Below, one piece after another: positions 2-63,781 of a stretch of 64,000 bases of DNA (position 1 is the first letter of the stretch; each line of letters opens with the position of its first letter). The notes under the pieces were generated by a model. It did no database searches and was not told the origin of the DNA. It saw only the letters and a list, made by a program, of their open reading frames with translations. The position numbers were made by a program, and so were the translations under genes. This DNA comes from Acidimicrobiia bacterium (GTDB lineage: Bacteria; Acidobacteriota; Terriglobia; Bryobacterales; Bryobacteraceae), in contig VFZE01000017.1 in the NCBI GenBank assembly GCA_016871315.1, positions 1 to 64,000 on the forward strand, written 5' to 3'.

Positions 2-883
2 GAGCCGACGCTCTTTGACGAAACGGCTCAGAGCAACGGTGTTGAGGATGGTGCTCCAGCACTCGTCCCGGGATTGCCTCATGTCAAAGCGGCTGAGGAA
101 CGCTCTGTTCTTGCCCTTTCTGTTGAGGAGGAAAAGAATCTCAGCCGGGCGATACAGCTACTTGGTGACACGTATGATCTAGTGAGCACTGTCGAGCACC
201 TGTACGATGTTCTTCCTCAACTATGCCGACTTCCGGGCGACGTTGAGACGAACGAGGCGGCGTTTGCTGCGGGTCTGAGCGGTAACCTCGTGTCGATTTG
301 CCGACGACAGTTGACGCTCGGAACACTCACCCTGCTTCGTGGCTACAGAAACGAGTCTCTACTGCATCTCCGAAGGGCAATCGAGACCTGTGCCTATGCC
401 GCAAGAATGGCGAAGCACCCGCAGATGGCCAAGGTGTGGCTACGGGCAGGAACCGATGAAGCTGCGTTCGACCTGTTCAGGAAGAAGTTCGTCAAGCTCT
501 TTCCGGCTGATGACCCCCTTTTGAGCTTCCTCGGGGAGCACTACGACATTTGCTCAAAGGCCATGCACAGCAGCATCTATGGCTTCGCTCACTACCTCGC
601 TCAATCCAGACGAGGACCAACGCTCTTCGATGTTGGCACGGATGCGAAGCTGGTTGGCTCGTTCATTACGGCAGTTGGCGTTCACTTTGTCATGGTTCGT
701 CTGTTCTACCGCCTTTTGATGCCCTACACGGTTGCCGGAATCCAGCAGTGGGCCTCCGAAATGGACGACGGTGAAAGGCTGTTTCGAGCCAGGCATGAGG
801 AGTGGCAACCGCTGATTGCGGCGGAATCGTTGAGGCTGGGAAAGGTGATCTGGGACTCAGCGGAAAGTGATCCAAAGCCATGA
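2..883 (+). CDS. Hypothetical mainly helical protein, probably 5'-truncated by the window edge
   Basis: I do not recognise the family with confidence. The reading frame is open from base 2 with no stop before the first usable start (TTG at 74), so the true start may lie outside the window; from 74 the protein has 269 residues. It looks mainly alpha-helical, with no signal peptide or membrane segment. A central segment (LRRAIETCAYAAR) and a later HYDICSKAMHSS stretch resemble the R...H layout of HEPN/DUF5677-like proteins, but that is only an impression. Its last four bases overlap the next gene (ATGA), so the two are probably co-translated. Function unknown. Confidence 0.6.
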   Translation, partial: EPTLFDETAQSNGVEDGAPALVPGLPHVKAAEERSVLALSVEEEKNLSRAIQLLGDTYDLVSTVEHLYDVLPQLCRLPGDVETNEAAFAAGLSGNLVSICRRQLTLGTLTLLRGYRNESLLHLRRAIETCAYAARMAKHPQMAKVWLRAGTDEAAFDLFRKKFVKLFPADDPLLSFLGEHYDICSKAMHSSIYGFAHYLAQSRRGPTLFDVGTDAKLVGSFITAVGVHFVMVRLFYRLLMPYTVAGIQQWASEMDDGERLFRARHEEWQPLIAAESLRLGKVIWDSAESDPKP

Positions 884-1242
884 GCCATCACGAACCTCGG
901 ACGGCCCCGCCGTGGACAACTAGTGAGATCCCGGTCGTGCTGACGTACATTCACCCCACTCCTGATGCGCGGGAACCCCGCTACCAGCTTCAGTGGGACT
1001 ACCAGATTGAGTGGCCGAAAGCCGGGCGTCCCACGATCACGCTCTTGCGCTTCCGCAGCTACCAGCAGAAGTCGGCAGAGGGGAAAGCCGAACTGGTCGA
1101 GGACATCACTGAAGACATCCCGGTGAACGAAGGGGTGATGATGGCATTGTCCCAACACGCAGCGTGGTATCTCTTTTCGACCTGCGAAATTGAAGGCGAT
1201 TGGAGATTTGCAGACAAGACGCTACTACCTAGAAGGATGTGA
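880..1242 (+). CDS. Hypothetical small soluble protein
   Basis: A 120-residue protein with no family I recognise. ATG at 880 overlaps the TGA of the upstream gene, the classic sign of translational coupling. The composition is soluble with alternating charged and aromatic residues, and there is no signal peptide or membrane segment. The C-terminus may have been altered by a frameshift: the +1 frame stays open past the stop and reads a plausible protein-like tail (see the 1190-1342 entry). Together with the upstream gene this looks like a two-gene accessory unit of unknown role. Confidence 0.55.
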   Translation: MSHHEPRTAPPWTTSEIPVVLTYIHPTPDAREPRYQLQWDYQIEWPKAGRPTITLLRFRSYQQKSAEGKAELVEDITEDIPVNEGVMMALSQHAAWYLFSTCEIEGDWRFADKTLLPRRM

Positions 1243-1342
1243 AGAGGCTGCAAAGAAACGGTTCAGCCTCTCGGCGTTTCGGCAGATGGTGCAAGCGGCA
1301 TCGCCCTGCCCGTCTATTCTGAAGGACGGCCGATCTCAATGA
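1190..1342 (+). CDS. Possible 50-residue ORF or frameshifted tail of the preceding gene
   Basis: In the +1 frame relative to the 880-1242 gene, an open stretch runs across its stop and ends with TGA at 1340-1342. From TTG at 1190 it encodes 50 residues, including the segment TRRYYLEGCEEAAKKRF, which looks more protein-like than a random shadow. It could be a separate small gene or the original C-terminus of the upstream gene after a frameshift. No homology is recognised. Confidence 0.2.
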   Translation: MKAIGDLQTRRYYLEGCEEAAKKRFSLSAFRQMVQAASPCPSILKDGRSQ

Positions 1343-1783
1343 ACTACCGCGCTGCATTGCTGGCTGCAGAGTATGCTGTATGCTGTTTGGAAGTTTGGAA
1401 TTGGAAACCCGGCCCGGCAGGCACGCGGGGCTCGCATCCGTGTATGCGAAGCCACGTTGGTTTGAAACACGTCGATTCGGGACACCAACACCAACCCCAC
1501 TGTCAACAAACGCCTCCTGTCAACAGGAGAAAGCCGAGAATTGGTACGCGAAAACTTGGGGTCCGGCCTCAACCCCGGGGGTTGAGTGCGCCACCCCGCG
1601 AATCATGTTTTCCAACGAGAGAGAACGCCCGCAACGCAAGAACTGCGGAATGTGGCGAGTACGGGCGAAGGCGGTGGCGAGCGCTGCCGTCAAGATAATG
1701 GGCCTTGGAGTTGGGACGTAGACGGTGTGGCTCCCCAGAGTGGACGCGAACTCCACTTGTTTCGGAGCAGGAGGAGTTCGTGG
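1343..1783. other. Gene-poor stretch between accessory genes and nfo
   Basis: About 440 bases with no convincing gene. Short open frames here overlap one another and have arginine/proline-rich junk composition. The only structured element noticed is at 1728-1756, which on the minus strand resembles a degenerate tRNA 3' end: a TTCG-containing loop between AGTGG and CCACT, followed by CTGGGGA and GCCA. No matching 5' acceptor strand was found downstream, so it is not an intact tRNA. Confidence 0.5.
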
Positions 1784-2698
1784 TTATGAGGCGGGCTTGC
1801 GCGGCGATGAATCGCGACGCGGCACGCCATGGGGGTGAGCCACGGCGAGGCGGCGCAGAGTTGAGAGGTTGCGCTCATCGTCGCCGTCGTCGTCGATGGG
1901 GGTTTCCAGAATGAAGGCCTTGTGGCGGAGTTTGGGATGGCGGACGATGCGGCGGAAGGCATCTTCACCGATGTGGCCTTTGCCGATGTGCTGGTGGCGG
2001 TCGATGCGGGAGCCGAGCGGGGCCTTCGAGTCGTTGGCGTGGATGACGTGGATGCGATCCAGCGGGAGGACGGCTTCGGCTTGCGCGAGGGTGTCCTTGA
2101 GACCGGCGGCGGTTGCGATGTTGTAGCCTGCGGCAAGAAGGTGGGCGGTGTCGAGACAGAAGCCGATTTCGTATTCGATGCGGTTGATGGCGAGGTGGCG
2201 GATGGCGGCGAGTTCCTCGATGCGGCTGCCGATGGCGGAGCCCTGGCCGGCGGTGTTTTCCAGAAGCAGCGTGAGGTGCGTCGAGCGGATGCCGCGAGAG
2301 GCTTCGGCGAGCGAGTCGGAGAGGGTGAGCAGCGCCTGCTCGAGCGACTGGTTCTTGTAGCTGCCGGGGTGCGCGACCAGGTACTCGGCGCCGATCAGGA
2401 TGGCGCGTTCGAGCTCGCCGCGGAAGGCGGCGATGGATTGCTTGCGGATGGAGGTGTCGGCGGAGGCGAGATTGATGAGGTAGTTGTCGTGGATGACGAG
2501 GGGGTGGAGGTTGTGTTTTTCGCGGGCGTGGCGGAGGCGGGCGATGGCCGGGAGAGAGGGCATGGAGGCGCGCCACATGCGGGGGCTGGCGGAGAAGATC
2601 TGGAAGGTGTCGCAGCCGAGGCGGTGGGCGTGGAGTGCGGCCTCTTCGAGGCTTTTGGCGATGGAGGTGTGAACGCCGGCGCGCAGAGGGGCCGGCAT
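1784..2698 (-). CDS. nfo: Endonuclease IV (AP endonuclease, Nfo)
   Basis: Class II apurinic/apyrimidinic endonuclease that cuts 5' of abasic sites in base excision repair, using three metal ions on a TIM barrel. The 304-residue length is slightly above the usual 280-300. Family signatures are visible in order: HDNYLINLA, ENTAGQG, GFCLDTAHLLAAGY (the usual LDTCH is LDTAH here) and HANDSKAPLGSRIDRHQHIG, which together carry most metal ligands. ATG at 2698 overlaps the stop of the upstream aldehyde dehydrogenase by one base, so both are probably on one transcript. The last ~15 residues are basic and divergent. Confidence 0.95.
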   Translation of the reverse strand: MPAPLRAGVHTSIAKSLEEAALHAHRLGCDTFQIFSASPRMWRASMPSLPAIARLRHAREKHNLHPLVIHDNYLINLASADTSIRKQSIAAFRGELERAILIGAEYLVAHPGSYKNQSLEQALLTLSDSLAEASRGIRSTHLTLLLENTAGQGSAIGSRIEELAAIRHLAINRIEYEIGFCLDTAHLLAAGYNIATAAGLKDTLAQAEAVLPLDRIHVIHANDSKAPLGSRIDRHQHIGKGHIGEDAFRRIVRHPKLRHKAFILETPIDDDGDDERNLSTLRRLAVAHPHGVPRRDSSPRKPAS

Positions 2699-55426: not shown

Positions 55427-57775
55427 ATGGGAAAAAGCCGCATGAAAGGCACGGCGTGTCTGTTGCTCACGGCCGCCTTGGCGGCGCAGTCGAATCCGCA
55501 CGGCCAGTTGTTCCGGCAGGCTGACGAGAACGGCCTCCAATTCGCCAAAGCTGCCGCGGCGATGCGCAAGCTCATGCTGGCATGGCTGGCCGAGGCCGAT
55601 CCGCGCACCGGTCTGCTCCCGGAACGGATCCCGGGGCTTCGCGGGCTAAAGGATGGCGACACGCGCCGCCGCTACACGCCCCACAACTCCGGCGCCGATC
55701 TGTATCCGTACCTGGTTCTGACTGCGGAACTCACCGATGGCAAACTCTACCGCGGCCGGATGCTCGAAATGCTCCGCAACGAGATCCGGTACGCGACGGC
55801 GGCCGATGCGATGCCCGCCGACCTGGATTTCCAGACCGGGCGCGCCGGCGAGATGAGTCTGTTCGGGGCGGCCGAATACGCAAAGGACGGGCTGCTGGCG
55901 GTGACGGAGTTGCTGGGCCGCACGCCATGGTTCTTCCGGATGGCGGATCTCACCGCCGGGATCATGAAACATGCGCCGGTCGACACGCGCTGGGGCACGC
56001 TGCCGGGAACGGGCGCCGAGATCAACGGAGATGTGCTGCAGGTGCTGGCGAGGCTGATCCCGATGACCGGGGAGGAACGCTACCGTCAGTGGGCGCGCGG
56101 GATCGCCGATGCCTACATCCACGAAGTGCTTCCCGGCTGCGGAGGCCTTCCTTGCATGAACTGGGATTTCAGCGCCCGGCGCGGTGACGGCCGCGTCCAG
56201 CTGCGCGACCATGGCAATGAAATGGTGGCCGGGCTCGCGCTGATTTATGCGCTGGAACATGCCGCCGGAAGCGAACGCGCCTCCTTGTACCGCCCCGTGG
56301 TGGAGCGCATGCTCCGCCGCATTCTGGAATCGGCGAACCAAGACGGTATGCTCTTTGACGCCATCGAGGCGGATTCTTTACGGCCCGTCAGGCAGCGGTT
56401 GTCGGATAACTGGGGTTACCTCTACGGCGCGATGTACACCTACTACCAGGTGACCGGTGACACGCGCTACCGCGACGCCGTGCGTCACGTCCTGTCGCGG
56501 CTCGGCAACTACCGCAACTACGACTGGGAGAACGGCTCCTTCGACGGCCTCGCCGATTCCATCGAGAGCGCGCTCTATCTGGTGAACCGCGAGCCGTCCG
56601 CAGATGCCTGGCGGTGGATCGATGCTGAAATGGAGGCCCTGCTCGGGCGCCAGCTACCCTCCGGGATGATCGAGCATTGGTACGGCGAGGGCAACTTCAA
56701 CCGCACCGTCTATCTCTACGCGCTGGCCAAGAGCCAAGGTTGTCGGCCCGACCGCTGGGTTCCGGGATTGCAAGTGGGCGCTGTGCGCATCGGCGAAATG
56801 CTGCATTTGTCGCTGGACCGGCCGGCTGTCATTCGATTCGATTTCGCCCGCCACCGCCGCGTGCTGCAACTGTCCGCGAACTATGTCCGGCTGAACGAAT
56901 TCCCGGAGTGGTTCACGGTGGAGGAGAACCGCCGGTACCGGCTCACCGGACCGGCCGGCGCAGACATGGTGCGGCGGGGCGCGGAACTCATCCAGGGAGT
57001 TCCGCTGGAGGCGGGCAACTGGCTGATCGACCCCATTCACTCAAAGGTCAAAGTGCTTATCCTCTCGGGCCGCAACAACCATGACTGGAAGACAACCTCG
57101 CCGCGGCTGCGCGAGATTCTCGAAAAAGCCGGAGGCTTCGACGTGCAGATTACGGAGGCGCCGGCGGAGTTAACCGCCGCCTCGCTCGAACCCTACCAAG
57201 TGCTTGTCTCCGACTACAACGGACCGCGCTGGGGGGCAACGGCGGAACAGGCTGTCCTGGACTTCGTGCGTTCCGGAAAGGGGTTCGTCGCCACACACGC
57301 CGCCATCTACGCGTTCGGGGAAATGGAGATCCTGGGAGACCGCCACGTTAGGACTGGGATCTACCAGCCGCCTTGGCGCGAGTATGCGGAGATGATGGGC
57401 GCGCATTGGAGCGCCGCCGCGCCCAAGAGCGGCCACGGTAAGCGCCACACCTTTCCGGTGATGTGGCGTGACCGCGCCCATCCCGTCGCCTCCGGCTTCG
57501 GTGAGAGCTTCGCGATCAGTGACGAGCTCTACCACAACCTCCGCGTTCGGCCGGGCAACCAGGTGCTGGCCGCGGCCTACGACGCGCCGGAGATGAACGG
57601 AACCGGGAACGAGGAACCCATGGCCTGGGTGCGCCCGTTCGGCAGGGGCCGCGTCTTTTACACCGCGCTAGGCCATGACGTGGAGGCGATGAAAGCGGAG
57701 GGATTTGCGAAAATGCTCGCGCAAGCCGTGGCTTGGGCGGCGGGCGCGGAGAAGGAGCAGTCATGGAGCCGTTAA
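55427..57775 (+). CDS. Exported (alpha/alpha)-barrel-like protein with C-terminal ThuA domain
   Basis: About 782 residues. Signal peptide (GTACLLLTAALAAQ); ATG 55427 or 55442 are both possible. Residues ~30-470 are helical with repeated WxxW/aromatic patterns (NWGYLYGAMYTYYQ, GNYRNYDWENGSFDGLAD), like six-hairpin glycosidase or lyase barrels. Residues ~565-775 are a ThuA-like domain: VLILSGRNNHDW, VSDYNGPRW, GFVATHAAIYAF, GRVFYTALGHD. Probably acts on an extracellular glycan. It overlaps the GH28 remnant by 13 bases, suggesting an original carbohydrate operon. Confidence 0.78.
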   Translation: MGKSRMKGTACLLLTAALAAQSNPHGQLFRQADENGLQFAKAAAAMRKLMLAWLAEADPRTGLLPERIPGLRGLKDGDTRRRYTPHNSGADLYPYLVLTAELTDGKLYRGRMLEMLRNEIRYATAADAMPADLDFQTGRAGEMSLFGAAEYAKDGLLAVTELLGRTPWFFRMADLTAGIMKHAPVDTRWGTLPGTGAEINGDVLQVLARLIPMTGEERYRQWARGIADAYIHEVLPGCGGLPCMNWDFSARRGDGRVQLRDHGNEMVAGLALIYALEHAAGSERASLYRPVVERMLRRILESANQDGMLFDAIEADSLRPVRQRLSDNWGYLYGAMYTYYQVTGDTRYRDAVRHVLSRLGNYRNYDWENGSFDGLADSIESALYLVNREPSADAWRWIDAEMEALLGRQLPSGMIEHWYGEGNFNRTVYLYALAKSQGCRPDRWVPGLQVGAVRIGEMLHLSLDRPAVIRFDFARHRRVLQLSANYVRLNEFPEWFTVEENRRYRLTGPAGADMVRRGAELIQGVPLEAGNWLIDPIHSKVKVLILSGRNNHDWKTTSPRLREILEKAGGFDVQITEAPAELTAASLEPYQVLVSDYNGPRWGATAEQAVLDFVRSGKGFVATHAAIYAFGEMEILGDRHVRTGIYQPPWREYAEMMGAHWSAAAPKSGHGKRHTFPVMWRDRAHPVASGFGESFAISDELYHNLRVRPGNQVLAAAYDAPEMNGTGNEEPMAWVRPFGRGRVFYTALGHDVEAMKAEGFAKMLAQAVAWAAGAEKEQSWSR

Positions 57776-58430
57776 GACGAAACCTCATTGGGTTCGGAGT
57801 GATCTCGGCGGCAAAGGCATGGTCGGAGCGGAAGTCGGTCACCGATTTCGGCGCCGCTCGCGACGGAAGCCGCCTGGCAACCGCACCGATTCAAAAAGCG
57901 ATAGACACCTGCGCGGAGGCGGGCGGCGGGCTAGTCTACTTCCCGCCCGGCACATATTCATCGGGCACGCTCGAGATGCGCAGCCAGGTTGGACTATACC
58001 TGGAGACCGGCGCCCGCCTGCGCGGCAGCACCGCGCTTGCCGACTATCCGCCGCGTATTCCGCTCCTTCGCTCCTATGCCGGCAACTACACGCAGCGCAG
58101 CCTGCTCTACGCCGAGCGCGTGCAGGGGATCTCGCTGCAAGGCGGCGGGCTCATCGATGGCCAGGGCGGCTCCTTCCAGGGCGATTACCTGGTGCGCCCG
58201 GCACGGAATCCAACGGCGGCTTTGAGAATATCGCCATCAGCAACTGCTCCGTCATCGACACGCGGCTGGCCGGCCTGACACTGCAGATTGTCGATGGCGG
58301 CACGCTGGAGGGCGTGGTCGTCAACAACCTCACCATGGATGGCGTCGGTGCGCCGCTCTTCCTGCGCCTCGGCAACCGCGCCCGGCCTTTCACCAAGGAT
58401 GGTTCTGTGCCAAGCCTCGATAAACTCTTT
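57763..58430 (+). pseudogene. GH28 polygalacturonase-like gene with deleted core
   Basis: The N-terminal part (57763 to ~58200) reads a typical pectate-lyase-3/GH28 start: TDFGAARDGSRLATAPIQKAID, VYFPPGTYSSGTLEM, LQGGGLIDGQGG. Just after DYLVRP the frame breaks, and the C-terminal repeats (GGFENIAISNCSVIDTRLAG, NNLTMDGVGAPLFLRLG) follow in the +2 frame. The middle with the catalytic Asp residues is missing. So there is an internal deletion and a frame change at about 58196-58210. The original role would be pectin breakdown. Confidence 0.8.
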
Positions 58431-58464
58431 TTTTACCGCACCCAGCTTTTTCTACAATGCCACT

Positions 58465-59253
58465 ATGACTCCCACCAAAGCCCGCATCCACTTCGGCTAC
58501 GTGCCCGAACCGGAACTGGACGCCCTCGCCGAACCCGCGCACTTCCTAGACACGCTCCCCTCCAGTTACACGGTCAACCTTAACTACATGCCTCTGCCTG
58601 GTGAGCAGGGCGGCCCCGGCCATATCGGCGCACCCGCTAGTTGCGCCGCCTGGTCGTTCTTGTACGGCGTCGCCACATACATGGGCGCACAGAAGGGCGG
58701 CTTCCCCGTTGTCGATGCCGCCAACCAGGTAAGCCCCGCCTACCTCTACGTCAAGCAGCGCGCCGCGGGCAAGGGCATTCCTCCCTGCAAGGGCTCCGCC
58801 TTCGCCTTCTACATTCAGGCGCTCCAGAACGAAGGCAGCCCGAACTGCGAAACCGCGCCTTACTATAACGACTGCACGCAGCTAACCAACGCCTACAAGA
58901 ACGCCACCTGCCCCTCCGACACCAGGTTCAACATCACCCAGACCAAAGTCGTCCCCACCGCGGATTTCGATTCCATCCGTCAAGTGCTGGCCAGTGATCG
59001 TCCGCTCGCCTGGTGCACCGGCCTTTACTCCGATTTCATCCACTACGACGGCTCTCCGCCCATCTACACAGGCAACGGCGTCCTCACGAAGATGGTCCAC
59101 TGCATGGTGCTGCTCGGCTACGATGACAGCAAGGAGGCCGTTTACATCCAGAACAGTTTCGGCCCCGGTTGGGGCGCCGGCGGCAGAGCCTGGATCGCGT
59201 ACGATACGTTCCAGAAACTGGCTAAGGGTTCGGCCCTTTATGTTGTCGCCTGA
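58465..59253 (+). CDS. Papain-like (C1-family) cysteine peptidase
   Basis: 262 residues. The catalytic triad is recognisable: Cys60 in GAPASCAAWSFLYG, His212 in MVHCMVLLGYDD and Asn230 in YIQNSFGPGWGAGG, the order and spacing of C1A peptidases. There is no signal peptide and no clear inhibitory propeptide; ATG at 58465 is the first start after the GH28 remnant. Eight cysteines suggest disulfides, so export by another route is possible. Cysteine rather than glutamine-glycine context (GAPAS instead of QGxCGS) is unusual. Confidence 0.85.
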   Translation: MTPTKARIHFGYVPEPELDALAEPAHFLDTLPSSYTVNLNYMPLPGEQGGPGHIGAPASCAAWSFLYGVATYMGAQKGGFPVVDAANQVSPAYLYVKQRAAGKGIPPCKGSAFAFYIQALQNEGSPNCETAPYYNDCTQLTNAYKNATCPSDTRFNITQTKVVPTADFDSIRQVLASDRPLAWCTGLYSDFIHYDGSPPIYTGNGVLTKMVHCMVLLGYDDSKEAVYIQNSFGPGWGAGGRAWIAYDTFQKLAKGSALYVVA

Positions 59254-59294: not shown

Positions 59295-61880
59295 ATGCCG
59301 CACTTCTCGCCCGGCGATCACCTCGGACCCTACGAGGTGATTTCCTTGCTGGGCACCGGAGGGATGGGCGAAGTTTACAAAGCCCAGGACCAGCGCCTCA
59401 GGCGCATGGTCGCGCTGAAGGTGCTCTCCCGCGGCCACGCGCACGACTCCGAGGCCCGGCAGCGCTTCCTCCGCGAGGCCCGTATCCTCTCCGCGCTTCA
59501 ACACCCCAACATCATGGCCATCTACGACCTGCTCGCCGTCGATGGCGCCGACATCATCGTCACCGAGTTGCTCGAAGGCCAGACGCTCGAAAAACTCCTG
59601 GAAGCACATCCTGCGGGGTTTCCTCCAGACCGCGTCAAGGACTACGCCCTGCAGATCGCCGCTGCCCTCCACAAAGCCCACTCCAGCGGCGTCCTCCACC
59701 GCGACCTCAAGCCCTCCAACATCATGGTCTCCGCCGAGCATCATGTGAAGGTGCTCGATTTCGGCCTCGCCAAATTCGCCGCCCCACCGGTCGAGGATCA
59801 GGTCACCCTCACCAATTATCTGGCAACACGCGCGGGAACCATGCTCGGCACTTCCGCCTACATGTCGCCGGAACAGGCGCAGGGCGAGGAGATCGACGAG
59901 CGCAGCGACATGTTCAGCTTCGGCGCCGTTCTCTATGAAATGGTCACCGGCCGCCGCGCCTTCTATCGAGGCAACCTTGCCTCCACGCTCGCCGCCGTGC
60001 TGCGCGATGAGCCCGAGCCACCCAGCCCCGCCGCCGGCAATCTCGCCACCGTCATTCACCGCTGCCTGCGCAAGCCTGCCTCCGAGCGCTACCCTTCCGT
60101 AAGCGCGCTCATGGATTCACTCCGCCACGGCGATTCCGGCTCCCTCGCCGCGCCCCCAACGGCCACCGCCCAGCCCCGGCTGCCCCGCCGCCAGGCTATC
60201 TTCATCGCCGCCGGACTTCTTGCCGGGCTCATCCCGCTGGCATGGATCTACCGGCCGCAACCCCCCGCCGCCAAGACCGCAACAGCGCCTGTCACCACCG
60301 ACGGGAAGCCGAAGATCTTTCCCTCCATCTCTCCGGACGGCAACCTCGTTGCCTACCTCGACGGCGTCGAAGGTGCCGGGCAACTAACCCTCACCGTCCG
60401 CCCCGTAGAGCCCGGCCGTGCCATCGCTCTGACTGATCGGCCCGTTCCCGCCCAACGGCCTGCTTGGTCGCCCGACGGAAAAACGCTGGCCTTTGCGCGC
60501 GCCGGCGCCGCCGTCCGCGGCATTTATGTCGTGCCCGCCCTGGGCGGCCCAGAGCGTCAGATCCTGAAAACAGATATGGCAGTGGCGGGCCTGGACTGGT
60601 CACCAGACGGCAAAGCTCTGGCGGTTTCCCTGGGCGATAGGAACCACGCCGACGCTATCTGGCTGGTCGACCCGGAAACGCGCGAACAGCGTCTGCTCAC
60701 ACACCCGCCGGCGGGCTCTTTGGGCGACTCCGCGCCGGTCTTTTCTCCCGATGGAAGGCAGCTTGCCTTCATTCGCCGCTTCGGCGTTGCTTCCAGCGAC
60801 ATTTTCCTCATCCTCCTTAGCGGCGGAGAGCCGCGCCGGCTGACCAAGGAGACCCATGCGCTTTTCGGGGTCAGCTGGACCCGCGATGGCCGCAGCTTGG
60901 TCTTCAGCTCCCGGCGCTCCATGCCACCGAGACTGTGGCGCATTCCCGCTGCGGGCGGCGAGCCGCAGCTTGTCGCCGAAGCCAGTGAAGGAAGCATGCA
61001 TCCCCATGTGGCGCGCAACACCGGCCGCTTGGTTTACCTTAACCGCCTGCGTGACCTCAACCTCTGGCGCGCCGATCTCGACCCCAGCGGCCGCGCCGTG
61101 GGCGCTCCGCGATCCTTCATCGCCTCCACCTACGTCGAGTCCACTGCCGCCTTTTCCCCTGACGGCAAGCTCGTCGCCTTCGACTCCCAGCGCAGCGGCC
61201 ATGCCGAAATCTGGCTCGCCGATGCCGATGGAGTCAATCCCGTCCAACTGACGAAGTTCAACGGCCCTCACGCGGCTCATCCCAGTTTCTCGCCCGACGG
61301 CAACTGGATCGCTCTCGACTCCCGCGTTCAGGGCCAGGCCGACATCTATGTCATCGCGCGTACGGGAGGCCAACCGCGCCGCCTCACCTCCTCCCCCGCC
61401 GACGAGGTCATGCCATGGTGGTCACGCGACGGGAATTGGATCTATTACACGCTGCGCAAGGACGGCGTCGGCATCCACAAGATTCCCGCCGGCGGCGGTC
61501 CGGCGGTGTTCGTCACCGAAGGGATCAATCCGCGGGAATCACCGGATGGGCGTTTTCTCTACTATCTGAAGAATCAGGGCAATTACATCTGGCGCCGCCC
61601 CACCGCCGGGGGCGCAGAGGAAAGCATCGCCGGCCCCGTCGGCGCCGGCGTCACCAGGCTTTGGACTATCGGTCCGGCCGGCATCTATTACTTCACCTCC
61701 CAGCACGAGTTGTCCGCGCTCCTGTTCGCCAAACCCAAGCCGGAGTTAATTCTCAGGATCACCGTGCCGGCGCCGACGGAAGCCGGCTCGCTCGCGATCT
61801 CCCCGGACGGCCGCGCGTTGCTCTATCCGCAGATGGACCAGTTTCAGACCGACATCTCGATGGTGGATAATTACCGTTGA
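59295..61880 (+). CDS. Ser/Thr protein kinase with C-terminal PD40/TolB-like propeller
   Basis: 861 residues. Kinase domain ~12-270: GTGGMGEVYKA glycine loop, catalytic Lys42 (ALKVL), HRDLKPSN with Asp137, DFGLAKF, and STSAYMSPEQ-like activation segment (GTSAYMSPEQAQGE). One membrane helix near 297-318 (AIFIAAGLLAGLIPLAWIY). The C-terminal ~530 residues outside the membrane carry PD40 repeats (FSPDGRQLAF, WSPDGKTLAF, FSPDGNWIAL), a sensor propeller common in Acidobacteria. Possible partners include the FHA-domain activator at 51-53 kb. Two bases later begins the rhodanese-like gene. Confidence 0.93.
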   Translation: MPHFSPGDHLGPYEVISLLGTGGMGEVYKAQDQRLRRMVALKVLSRGHAHDSEARQRFLREARILSALQHPNIMAIYDLLAVDGADIIVTELLEGQTLEKLLEAHPAGFPPDRVKDYALQIAAALHKAHSSGVLHRDLKPSNIMVSAEHHVKVLDFGLAKFAAPPVEDQVTLTNYLATRAGTMLGTSAYMSPEQAQGEEIDERSDMFSFGAVLYEMVTGRRAFYRGNLASTLAAVLRDEPEPPSPAAGNLATVIHRCLRKPASERYPSVSALMDSLRHGDSGSLAAPPTATAQPRLPRRQAIFIAAGLLAGLIPLAWIYRPQPPAAKTATAPVTTDGKPKIFPSISPDGNLVAYLDGVEGAGQLTLTVRPVEPGRAIALTDRPVPAQRPAWSPDGKTLAFARAGAAVRGIYVVPALGGPERQILKTDMAVAGLDWSPDGKALAVSLGDRNHADAIWLVDPETREQRLLTHPPAGSLGDSAPVFSPDGRQLAFIRRFGVASSDIFLILLSGGEPRRLTKETHALFGVSWTRDGRSLVFSSRRSMPPRLWRIPAAGGEPQLVAEASEGSMHPHVARNTGRLVYLNRLRDLNLWRADLDPSGRAVGAPRSFIASTYVESTAAFSPDGKLVAFDSQRSGHAEIWLADADGVNPVQLTKFNGPHAAHPSFSPDGNWIALDSRVQGQADIYVIARTGGQPRRLTSSPADEVMPWWSRDGNWIYYTLRKDGVGIHKIPAGGGPAVFVTEGINPRESPDGRFLYYLKNQGNYIWRRPTAGGAEESIAGPVGAGVTRLWTIGPAGIYYFTSQHELSALLFAKPKPELILRITVPAPTEAGSLAISPDGRALLYPQMDQFQTDISMVDNYR

Positions 61881-61881
61881 G

Positions 61882-62178
61882 ATGAAGTTTCTTGATGATT
61901 TGCCCCTCCGTGCCAACATAGCTGAGACACCTTCCCCGGCCGTAATTACTGAGCAGGGCGAGAAGATCCCCGGCGCAAAGTGGATCGAACGAAGCAACGT
62001 CACCCAGGAGGCCCGGCCGAAGGGCCGTTTCGTTCTGTACTGTAATTGAACCAAGGAAGCTACCAGCGCCAGGCTGGCGCGGAAATTGATCGAAGCGGGA
62101 GCGCGTGAGGTCCTGCCGCTGGAGGGCGGTTTCGTCAAATGGAAGAGGCTTGGTTACCCTGTCGAGCCCGCCTACTGA
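61882..62178 (+). CDS. Rhodanese-like protein with in-frame TGA in the active-site loop (candidate selenoprotein)
   Basis: ATG 61882 starts one base after the kinase stop. The frame encodes 98 residues if TGA at 62047-62049 (codon 56) is read through. Before it: GEKIPGAKWIE and FVLYCN; after it: TKEATSARLARKLIEAGA and VLPLEGGFVKWKRLGYPVEP, both diagnostic of a single-domain rhodanese (sulfurtransferase). The first loop Cys is Cys54; TGA takes the place of the second Cys found in many YCxC-type relatives. A 6-bp GCGCCA/TGGCGC hairpin with loop GGC lies 22 bases after the TGA, within bacterial SECIS limits. The frame is otherwise intact over 98 codons. A plain nonsense mutation is the alternative. 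Confidence 0.6.
62047..62080 (+). promoter_or_regulatory. Candidate UGA-Sec codon and bacterial SECIS hairpin
   Basis: TGA at 62047-62049; hairpin stem 62066-62071 with 62075-62080 and apical loop GGC at 62072-62074, starting with G as required for SelB recognition in the known model. The stem is short and GC-rich, so chance formation cannot be excluded. Confidence 0.35.
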
Positions 62179-62243
62179 CCGGCTACTCCACCGGGACCCG
62201 GCACCGAAGCCTCGCAGCGCACAATCCATTGAACAGAAGCAGG

Positions 62244-63176
62244 TTATGTGCGCATTGGGTTTGTATAAGAGTTCCTGTCCTCGCGCGTGTGTTCATGGAA
62301 GAGCCCCAGAGCGTGGCCGATCTCGTGGATTGCGGCGCCCGTGGAGCAGTTGTCTCCGATGTTGATCGTTTGCGCCGCCTGCCCGATGTAGCCAACATAA
62401 GAGGAACAGTTGTTCGGGTTGGATGGCTTCAGGAAATGGGCGTAATTGGTCTGGTTGGTTCGCTCCACCAACTGGATCACTCCCCCAAGGCGGGAATTCC
62501 AATGCTGAATCGCCGAGGTGACCCGCGCCTGGTTCGGCATCGCGGGATCGATCGTGTAAGACATCACGCCGCCCGGCCATCGGTAGAGCGTGCTCGTCAG
62601 CCCCATGCTTTCGCGCCGACCCTTGTCAGTGCCTATCGGCAGCTGCAGATCCTCGACACGGCCCAAGAGCATGTCTCCTGCGATCACCGCCACTCCGTTG
62701 CGCACCACATAACCCACCGGAGAACCGCGGAAAATCGCTGTTCCCGTGGTTCCTTCCAACTCCGGCCTGCCGGTAGTGTCCGGCGCGGCCTCCTGCCGCA
62801 TCTTCTGCAATCCCGTCTCGTTCAAGTGGCGGACCGCCGCCAGATGAAAGGGCATGTCGGTTGGTTCTTCCTCCTCCGTCAACAGCTCAATCAGAGCCTG
62901 ACTTCCGGCCACGGCCACCGACCAGAATTCACCTGTTCCCACCGGACCGGCGCCGTCGTAGCTGCCGCGCAGCGCGTACGGCTCTCCTAGCGCATCCAAC
63001 TCCCAAATCAGCAGCTTGGCGCCCTCGGCAATGCGAACATCCTGGAAGAAGAACTGCAGGCCTTGCGCGCCGGGACTGGAAACGCGCAGGGTGAGGACCC
63101 ATAGGCCGTCACGAACGCCGATGCCGGCCATCTCCTTGATCTCGGCTACGGTCTCAAGATGAGCCCGCGCGCACAT
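62244..63176 (-). CDS. Astacin-like (M12A) metallopeptidase, truncated at both ends
   Basis: 310 residues from ATG 63176. An N-terminal prodomain-like part (LWVLTLRVSSPGAQGLQFF) is followed by the catalytic domain up to HEIGHALGLFHEHTR, the complete zinc motif of astacins. The protein ends 10 residues later: the rest of the catalytic domain, including the Met-turn, is missing. At the N-terminus no signal peptide remains, because the frame's upstream part is the TetR-side palindrome. It is therefore a decayed or inactive protease that once was secreted. It follows the TetR gene on the same strand. Confidence 0.75.
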   Translation of the reverse strand: MCARAHLETVAEIKEMAGIGVRDGLWVLTLRVSSPGAQGLQFFFQDVRIAEGAKLLIWELDALGEPYALRGSYDGAGPVGTGEFWSVAVAGSQALIELLTEEEEPTDMPFHLAAVRHLNETGLQKMRQEAAPDTTGRPELEGTTGTAIFRGSPVGYVVRNGVAVIAGDMLLGRVEDLQLPIGTDKGRRESMGLTSTLYRWPGGVMSYTIDPAMPNQARVTSAIQHWNSRLGGVIQLVERTNQTNYAHFLKPSNPNNCSSYVGYIGQAAQTINIGDNCSTGAAIHEIGHALGLFHEHTREDRNSYTNPMRT

Positions 63177-63183
63177 CCCCGTT

Positions 63184-63214
63184 ACCCGACAAGTTGTCCG
63201 ACAACTTGTCGGGT
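63184..63214. promoter_or_regulatory. 31-base palindrome between TetR regulator and protease
   Basis: Arms 63184-63197 and 63201-63214 are perfect 14-bp complements around CCG. Each arm contains its own palindrome, GACAAGTTGTC and GACAACTTGTC, so the element is two tandem GACAA-s-TTGTC half-site pairs. It starts 4 bases after the TetR stop and 8 bases before the protease ATG. It fits a TetR-type operator controlling the protease gene; a transcriptional terminator is less likely because no T-run follows. Confidence 0.5.
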
Positions 63215-63217
63215 TAC

Positions 63218-63781
63218 TCACCTGCCCACGGCCCGGATCAGGGCCTCCACCGTTCGATCCACGAACAGCTGCGGCATTCTGCCGCCGTGCGCCCCCAGCT
63301 TCTCGAAGATCGCTATGCCCTGCATGGATGACATGACGAGTAATGCGGCGGCGGGGGCATCCTCGACCTGGTTGACCCGGAAAAACTCCATCATGTCTCC
63401 GCGCAAGCGCACCATCCCGGATTGCGGATGCCTTTCGGCGAACTCCTCAAACTGGAAATCCGGATGCGACATCAGCGGCACCAGCACAGGCAGCGCGGCC
63501 CGGAAATAGTCGAGCAACGCCATGCTCACGCGGCGTAGCTGCGCCGGAAACTCCGTGCGCCGCGCAGCTTTCCCAAGCAACTTCTCCAGCCCCGCCTCTG
63601 GAGGAGACATGGCCGCGAAGAAAAGCTCCGCCTTGGTCCGGTAGCGCTGGAACAGGAGCCCTTCGGAAACCTTCGCCCGCCGCGCGATCTCGCGCGCCGG
63701 CGCGCCTAACCCCTTCTCCACGAATACCTCGCGCGCCGCCTTCAACAGCCGCGTATCCGGGATCTCTTTCTTTCTCGCCAC
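63218..63781 (-). CDS. TetR/AcrR-family transcriptional regulator
   Basis: 187 residues. N-terminal TetR HTH: RLLKAAREVFVEKGLGAPAR then EIARRAKVSEGLLFQRYRTK, where SEGLLFQRY takes the recognition helix position. The C-terminal helical ligand domain is not assignable. GTG at 63781 is chosen because it lies directly before the HTH; the longer frame adds an arginine-rich stretch that overlaps the upstream gene. It probably regulates itself or the adjacent protease through the palindrome that starts 4 bases after its stop. Confidence 0.9.
   Translation of the reverse strand: MARKKEIPDTRLLKAAREVFVEKGLGAPAREIARRAKVSEGLLFQRYRTKAELFFAAMSPPEAGLEKLLGKAARRTEFPAQLRRVSMALLDYFRAALPVLVPLMSHPDFQFEEFAERHPQSGMVRLRGDMMEFFRVNQVEDAPAAALLVMSSMQGIAIFEKLGAHGGRMPQLFVDRTVEALIRAVGR

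Follow-up and report, generated by a model that had tools for sequence, protein, structure and literature searches.

Does a short open frame with an in-frame TGA, a rhodanese active site and a well formed hairpin behind the TGA encode a small working selenoprotein, or is it what remains of a larger gene? The question is raised by a frame of 98 codons close to one end of the stretch of DNA analysed here (the window, 64,000 nucleotides, in contig C17 of a 6.25 Mb draft genome of 166 contigs that is 98.34% complete). A preliminary description of the window, made from the sequence, put forward a selenocysteine rhodanese-like protein directly behind a PD40 kinase. The outline of that proposal is as described: the ATG of the frame lies one base after the end of the kinase stop codon, and the only in-frame TGA is codon 56, in the context YCN-TGA-TKEATSAR, two residues C-terminal of Cys54. 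The frame itself is made of parts with different origins, and the features discussed below are as follows.

59295–61880, + strand: PD40 serine/threonine kinase gene, apparently complete (Pfam Pkinase 1.4e-51, PD40 9.1e-43)
61882–62178, + strand: frame of 98 codons, counted before the final stop, with a single in-frame TGA
61882–61903, + strand: ATG and about seven codons linking the kinase stop to the IS end (from the sequence)
61904–61964, + strand: left end of an insertion sequence (IS), presumably IS3-type, first 61 bp only, supplying codons 8–27 (from repeat copies)
61965–62178, + strand: CxU-family (LYCxU) rhodanese domain without its front; the C-terminal portion runs from KIPGA to the stop codon (NF041203, alignments)
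62047–62049, + strand: selenocysteine-type TGA, codon 56 (of 87 members aligned, 59 have TGA here and 28 have Cys)
62066–62080, + strand: bSECIS-type hairpin GCGCCA-GGC-TGGCGC (bSECIS criteria; hairpin dG -8.7 kcal/mol)
62244–63221, − strand: astacin (M12A) peptidase gene, 3′-truncated, facing the rhodanese fragment (Pfam Astacin 1–105 of 189)

Probable selenocysteine codon and hairpin

The genome was searched for the selenocysteine machinery, as had been suggested, and SelA (400.9 bits), SelB (382.2 bits), SelD (353.1 bits) and a tRNA-Sec with anticodon TCA (69.5 bits) were all found. From the established biology of selenocysteine, UGA should therefore be readable as Sec in this organism. The SelD gene has one in-frame TGA of its own (G000:C12:114032-114955), so that SelD may itself be a selenoprotein.

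To compare the TGA position across relatives, 201 genomes were searched for the family, giving 142 matches in 112 genomes, two of which (G000:C43 and G052:C54) matched the IS end only. We aligned 87 of the remaining 140 matches, which were picked by score and later partly by a listing of TGA codons. In these 87 members, window included, the column reads TGA in 59, TGC in 20 and TGT in 8, and no third residue occurs in it; given how the rows were picked, the ratio of 59 to 28 is not a frequency, and the column was read in 87 of the 140 matches. Cysteine at the position of the TGA, which the preliminary description had stated for many relatives, is found in 28 of the 87. One member, from genome G007, was considered as a case of TAG-coded selenocysteine and rejected: its codon in the column is TGT, and the TAG lies elsewhere in the match.

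Relatives are about 50% identical, and 16 of them, among which are Cys and stand-alone members, range from 39 to 54% in their identity to the fragment. A search of 237 genomes of the taxonomic family at E ≤ 1e-8 brought up no closer parent: the best other match scores 57.9 bits against 147 for the fragment itself, with 52% identity over the fragment; others reach up to 60% over parts of it. A first search of genome contigs gave no relatives of the whole frame. A pattern with Cys at the Sec position, with which only Cys members are detectable, found no relatives among viral contigs. A second scan of genome contigs, with a pattern that likewise detects only Cys members, gave 182 records, and of the 80 that were retained 67 carry Acidobacteriota names.

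A hairpin was reported behind the TGA and it is present, with a perfect 6 bp stem (GCGCCA/TGGCGC) and a GGC loop that lies 22 nucleotides after the TGA. The bSECIS criteria given in PMC13188914 are a loop of 3–9 nucleotides with G in its first two bases, a stem of 4–16 bp, a distance of 16–37 nucleotides from the TGA and an energy at or below -7.5. The window hairpin falls within all of them as worded there (GGC loop with a G in the first two bases, 6 bp, 22 nucleotides, -8.7), where energies were computed for the hairpin alone. By the same criteria a hairpin occurs in 57 of the 59 TGA members and in 4 of the 28 Cys members (Fisher p 3.4e-15). A looser measure, which asks only that the best hairpin have a G at loop position 1 or 2, separates TGA from Cys members less sharply (58/59 vs 15/28), with mean folding energies of -15.0 and -12.8 respectively. 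Of 5000 synonymous recodings of the 21 codons after the TGA, 1.46% gave an equally stable hairpin, as did 32 of 838 windows taken in frame from the adjacent kinase gene, so the window hairpin taken alone is only mildly unusual. Together, the selenocysteine machinery, a column restricted to TGA and Cys, and a hairpin that follows the TGA members argue for the proposed selenocysteine, and judging from these comparisons the TGA at 62047–62049 was very probably inherited as a genuine selenocysteine codon.

Composition of the frame

The family to which the fragment belongs is already known. The best NCBIfam match to the frame is NF041203 (rhodanese_LYCAU), a rhodanese-related (seleno)protein with the motif CxU that corresponds to "rhodanese-like form 3" in PMC13188914, and a COG0607 form 2 with the motif CxU is listed in PMC9312934. 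The fragment shares the LYCxU/C active site of this family, as VLYCNU, but it spans only positions 54–125 of the 126 in the profile (59.5 bits, E 2.5e-16). It does not reach the curated whole-protein cut-off of 115 bits, and two relatives, L028 (81.8) and L036 (93.2), are also under it.

The two halves of the frame had both been described as rhodanese-like. This does not hold for the front half, since the Pfam Rhodanese match (7.5e-6) and the NCBIfam match begin only at codon 28; codons 8–27 are terminal IS DNA and codons 1–7 are the spacer between kinase and IS. The rhodanese sequence begins abruptly at 61965, with the first 53 of the 126 profile positions missing. In intact relatives a strand carrying D-L-R and then a helix precede KIPGA, and at this place the window has the IS end; when aligned, the fragment lacks the nearly invariant D and R that stand before IPGA, and the domain is incomplete.

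The foreign origin of codons 8–27 is observed in the repeat copies. Positions 61904–61964 are identical at 57 of 61 bases to copies in the same genome, at G000:C43 and G000:C1, and the DNA of these codons recurs near contig ends of this and another genome in unrelated surroundings. A pattern for the IS end (up to 3 mismatches) occurs at 15 places, spread over 6 of the 61 genomes searched, and the reversed control pattern at none in the same 61. All 15 places start at CCCTCCGTG, as the pattern favours, and their flanks differ. At one of them (L081) the IS end is followed by an orfA (HTH_Tnp_1 1.2e-4, 22.7 bits, just under the cut-off) and then by orfB, whose product carries an integrase core (rve 1.2e-17), so that the repeated terminus stands beside an rve-type orfA/orfB transposase, and at another (L091) a matching inverted end was seen by eye behind the transposase. 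The stretch in the window is therefore the left end of an element that we take to be IS3-type. The element has the ends CCCTCCGTGCCAACAT..TGAGACA; L081 and L091 between them show its transposase and both ends, whereas the window shares the 61 bp left end alone, and no right end was found in it. Identity to the IS copies ceases at 61964/61965, where the rhodanese sequence takes over. A further copy of the IS end in the same genome (G000:C12:94239-94265) resembles the others for about 31 bp, after which the likeness stops.

On its other side the fragment faces a second broken gene. The astacin gene of the window ends after 105 of the 189 Pfam Astacin positions, while a relative from the same genus has 672 amino acids and covers positions 1–186. 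We placed this second breakpoint by eye near 62270. The stretch 62234–62256 was found in the window only, among 21 genomes, so the second breakpoint is not tied to a mobile element. The preliminary description had cautioned that the window contains pseudogenes, and the caution was apt, given a rhodanese that lacks its front and a truncated gene beside it. At 57733–58278 of the window there is also a pectate-lyase-like frame that matches only positions 3–45 of 213, followed at 58288–59253 by a papain-type peptidase frame; the two may derive from genes that were rearranged or frameshifted.

What remains of the rhodanese is in good order. It is free of additional stops and frameshifts, and of the 26 columns in which at least 75% of the members agree it retains 24, which is middling among the 87. 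Since conserved columns decay when selection is absent, either the gene broke recently or its breakage is tolerated. In the MAFFT alignment the replaced stretch is placed without gaps just before IPGA, and the junction is in frame. The model that AlphaFold2 returned when given 25 relatives has its elements arranged much as in a rhodanese (mean pLDDT 78.0, pTM 0.66), but it leans on the alignment supplied and is below the intact control (pLDDT 88.5, pTM 0.81). In a tree of the 87 members, based on about 70 residues and with branch lengths that carry no support values, no terminal branch is longer than that of the fragment (1.16 vs a median of 0.19), so the parent gene is not in hand; going by this branch, the parent would be a distant member of the family.

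Relatives fused to membrane domains

Domain scans covered 32 of the 58 TGA relatives. The rhodanese domain is present in all 32; it is accompanied by VTT in 27 and by a Na+/H+ exchanger domain in 2, and it is the only domain in three (L036, L058 and L130). In the 27, of which L028 is one, a TGA-coded C-x-Sec rhodanese shares a frame with an N-terminal VTT (DedA) domain. The comparison thus reveals many TGA-coded C-x-Sec rhodanese domains fused to VTT (DedA) membrane proteins among the relatives. These fusions have the rhodanese part, the TGA column and the SECIS in common with the window, but the window has no VTT domain and an incomplete rhodanese: Pfam gives only Rhodanese on the frame, and directly upstream lie the IS end and the kinase stop. 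In the two remaining frames, 906–2654 (−) of L106 and 154–1881 (+) of L107, located in genomes G080 and G009, a Na+/H+ exchanger domain is followed by a rhodanese with an active-site TGA; by sequence these are possible antiporter-rhodanese selenoproteins. In a literature search with most subscription journals outside its reach, we found no report of a VTT (DedA)-rhodanese selenoprotein fusion and none of a rhodanese-antiporter one.

Remnant or working gene

An intact gene for a small rhodanese selenoprotein, as first proposed, does not agree with a frame that takes codons 8–27 from an IS end, lacks the front of the domain and stands beside a truncated gene. We consider it probable that the frame is a recent, 5′-truncated remnant of a C-x-Sec (CxU) rhodanese selenoprotein gene. 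The arrangement of UGA and SECIS in intact relatives, which are mostly VTT (DedA)-rhodanese fusions and in some cases stand-alone, emerges from the comparison; in these genes the UGA would be read as Sec by means of the SECIS hairpin about 22 nucleotides downstream. In the window, the left end of the IS3-type element lies 23 bp past the kinase stop; the IS body and the front of the rhodanese would have been lost through a deletion or rearrangement, which would also have removed the VTT domain of a parent that carried one. IS position 61 is joined directly to the codon before IPGA; the order of the events that led to this junction is our reconstruction. The parent may have been a VTT (DedA) fusion, though with three stand-alone members among the 32 scanned relatives a VTT domain was not necessarily lost here.

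On the remnant reading the open frame of 98 codons would be a by-product. If it were translated, for example by ribosomes that re-initiate once they have terminated on the kinase, decoding of the UGA by SelB would still be possible, and the product could contain Sec but would be without the DLR part of the domain. A selenocysteine codon and a valid SECIS can therefore occur in a broken gene, and predictors that use the motif and the SECIS alone could name such a remnant a selenoprotein.

The same frame could instead be a working chimeric mini-selenoprotein, in which the IS end provides the start region and takes the place of the domain's first strand and helix; a free C-x-Sec rhodanese domain would be made by re-initiation behind the kinase. 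The open frame, the in-frame junction and the gap-free placement of the replaced stretch are what such a protein would show, as are the retained conserved columns, the intact SECIS, the confidence of the predicted model, the closeness of the start codon to the kinase stop and the existence of stand-alone TGA rhodaneses among the relatives. The DLR motif, however, is gone, no clear Shine-Dalgarno sequence was seen by eye ahead of the ATG, a second broken gene adjoins, the model is less confident than that of the intact control, and the 237 family genomes hold no close copy. We therefore regard a working chimera as unlikely, and slightly more so its boldest form, a newborn functional selenoprotein in which an in-frame IS-end swap gave a soluble C-x-Sec mini-rhodanese with translation coupled to that of the PD40 kinase.

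It is more doubtful again that the junction is an artefact of draft assembly and that the real gene is intact elsewhere. The assembly is in many contigs, and the two most similar IS copies lie at contig ends, a typical weak spot, but the longest exact words shared with those copies are 27 and 26 bases, and no intact member was found in the nearly complete genome. No other CxU or CxC member was found in the 166 contigs; a full-length relative used as query matched the fragment, a VTT-like frame of 221 amino acids (27% identity) and one ordinary rhodanese. NF041203 has five matches in the genome including the fragment, and the other four have ordinary active sites (CGGGYRS, CKSGMRS, CKGGYRS and CHHGMRS).

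Finally, an ordinary rhodanese pseudogene in which the TGA arose as a chance nonsense mutation would suit a gene broken at its 5′ side but was rejected as having a negligible probability, since 58 further members of the alignment also have TGA in this column, 56 of them with a SECIS-type hairpin, and 24 of the 28 Cys members are without one.
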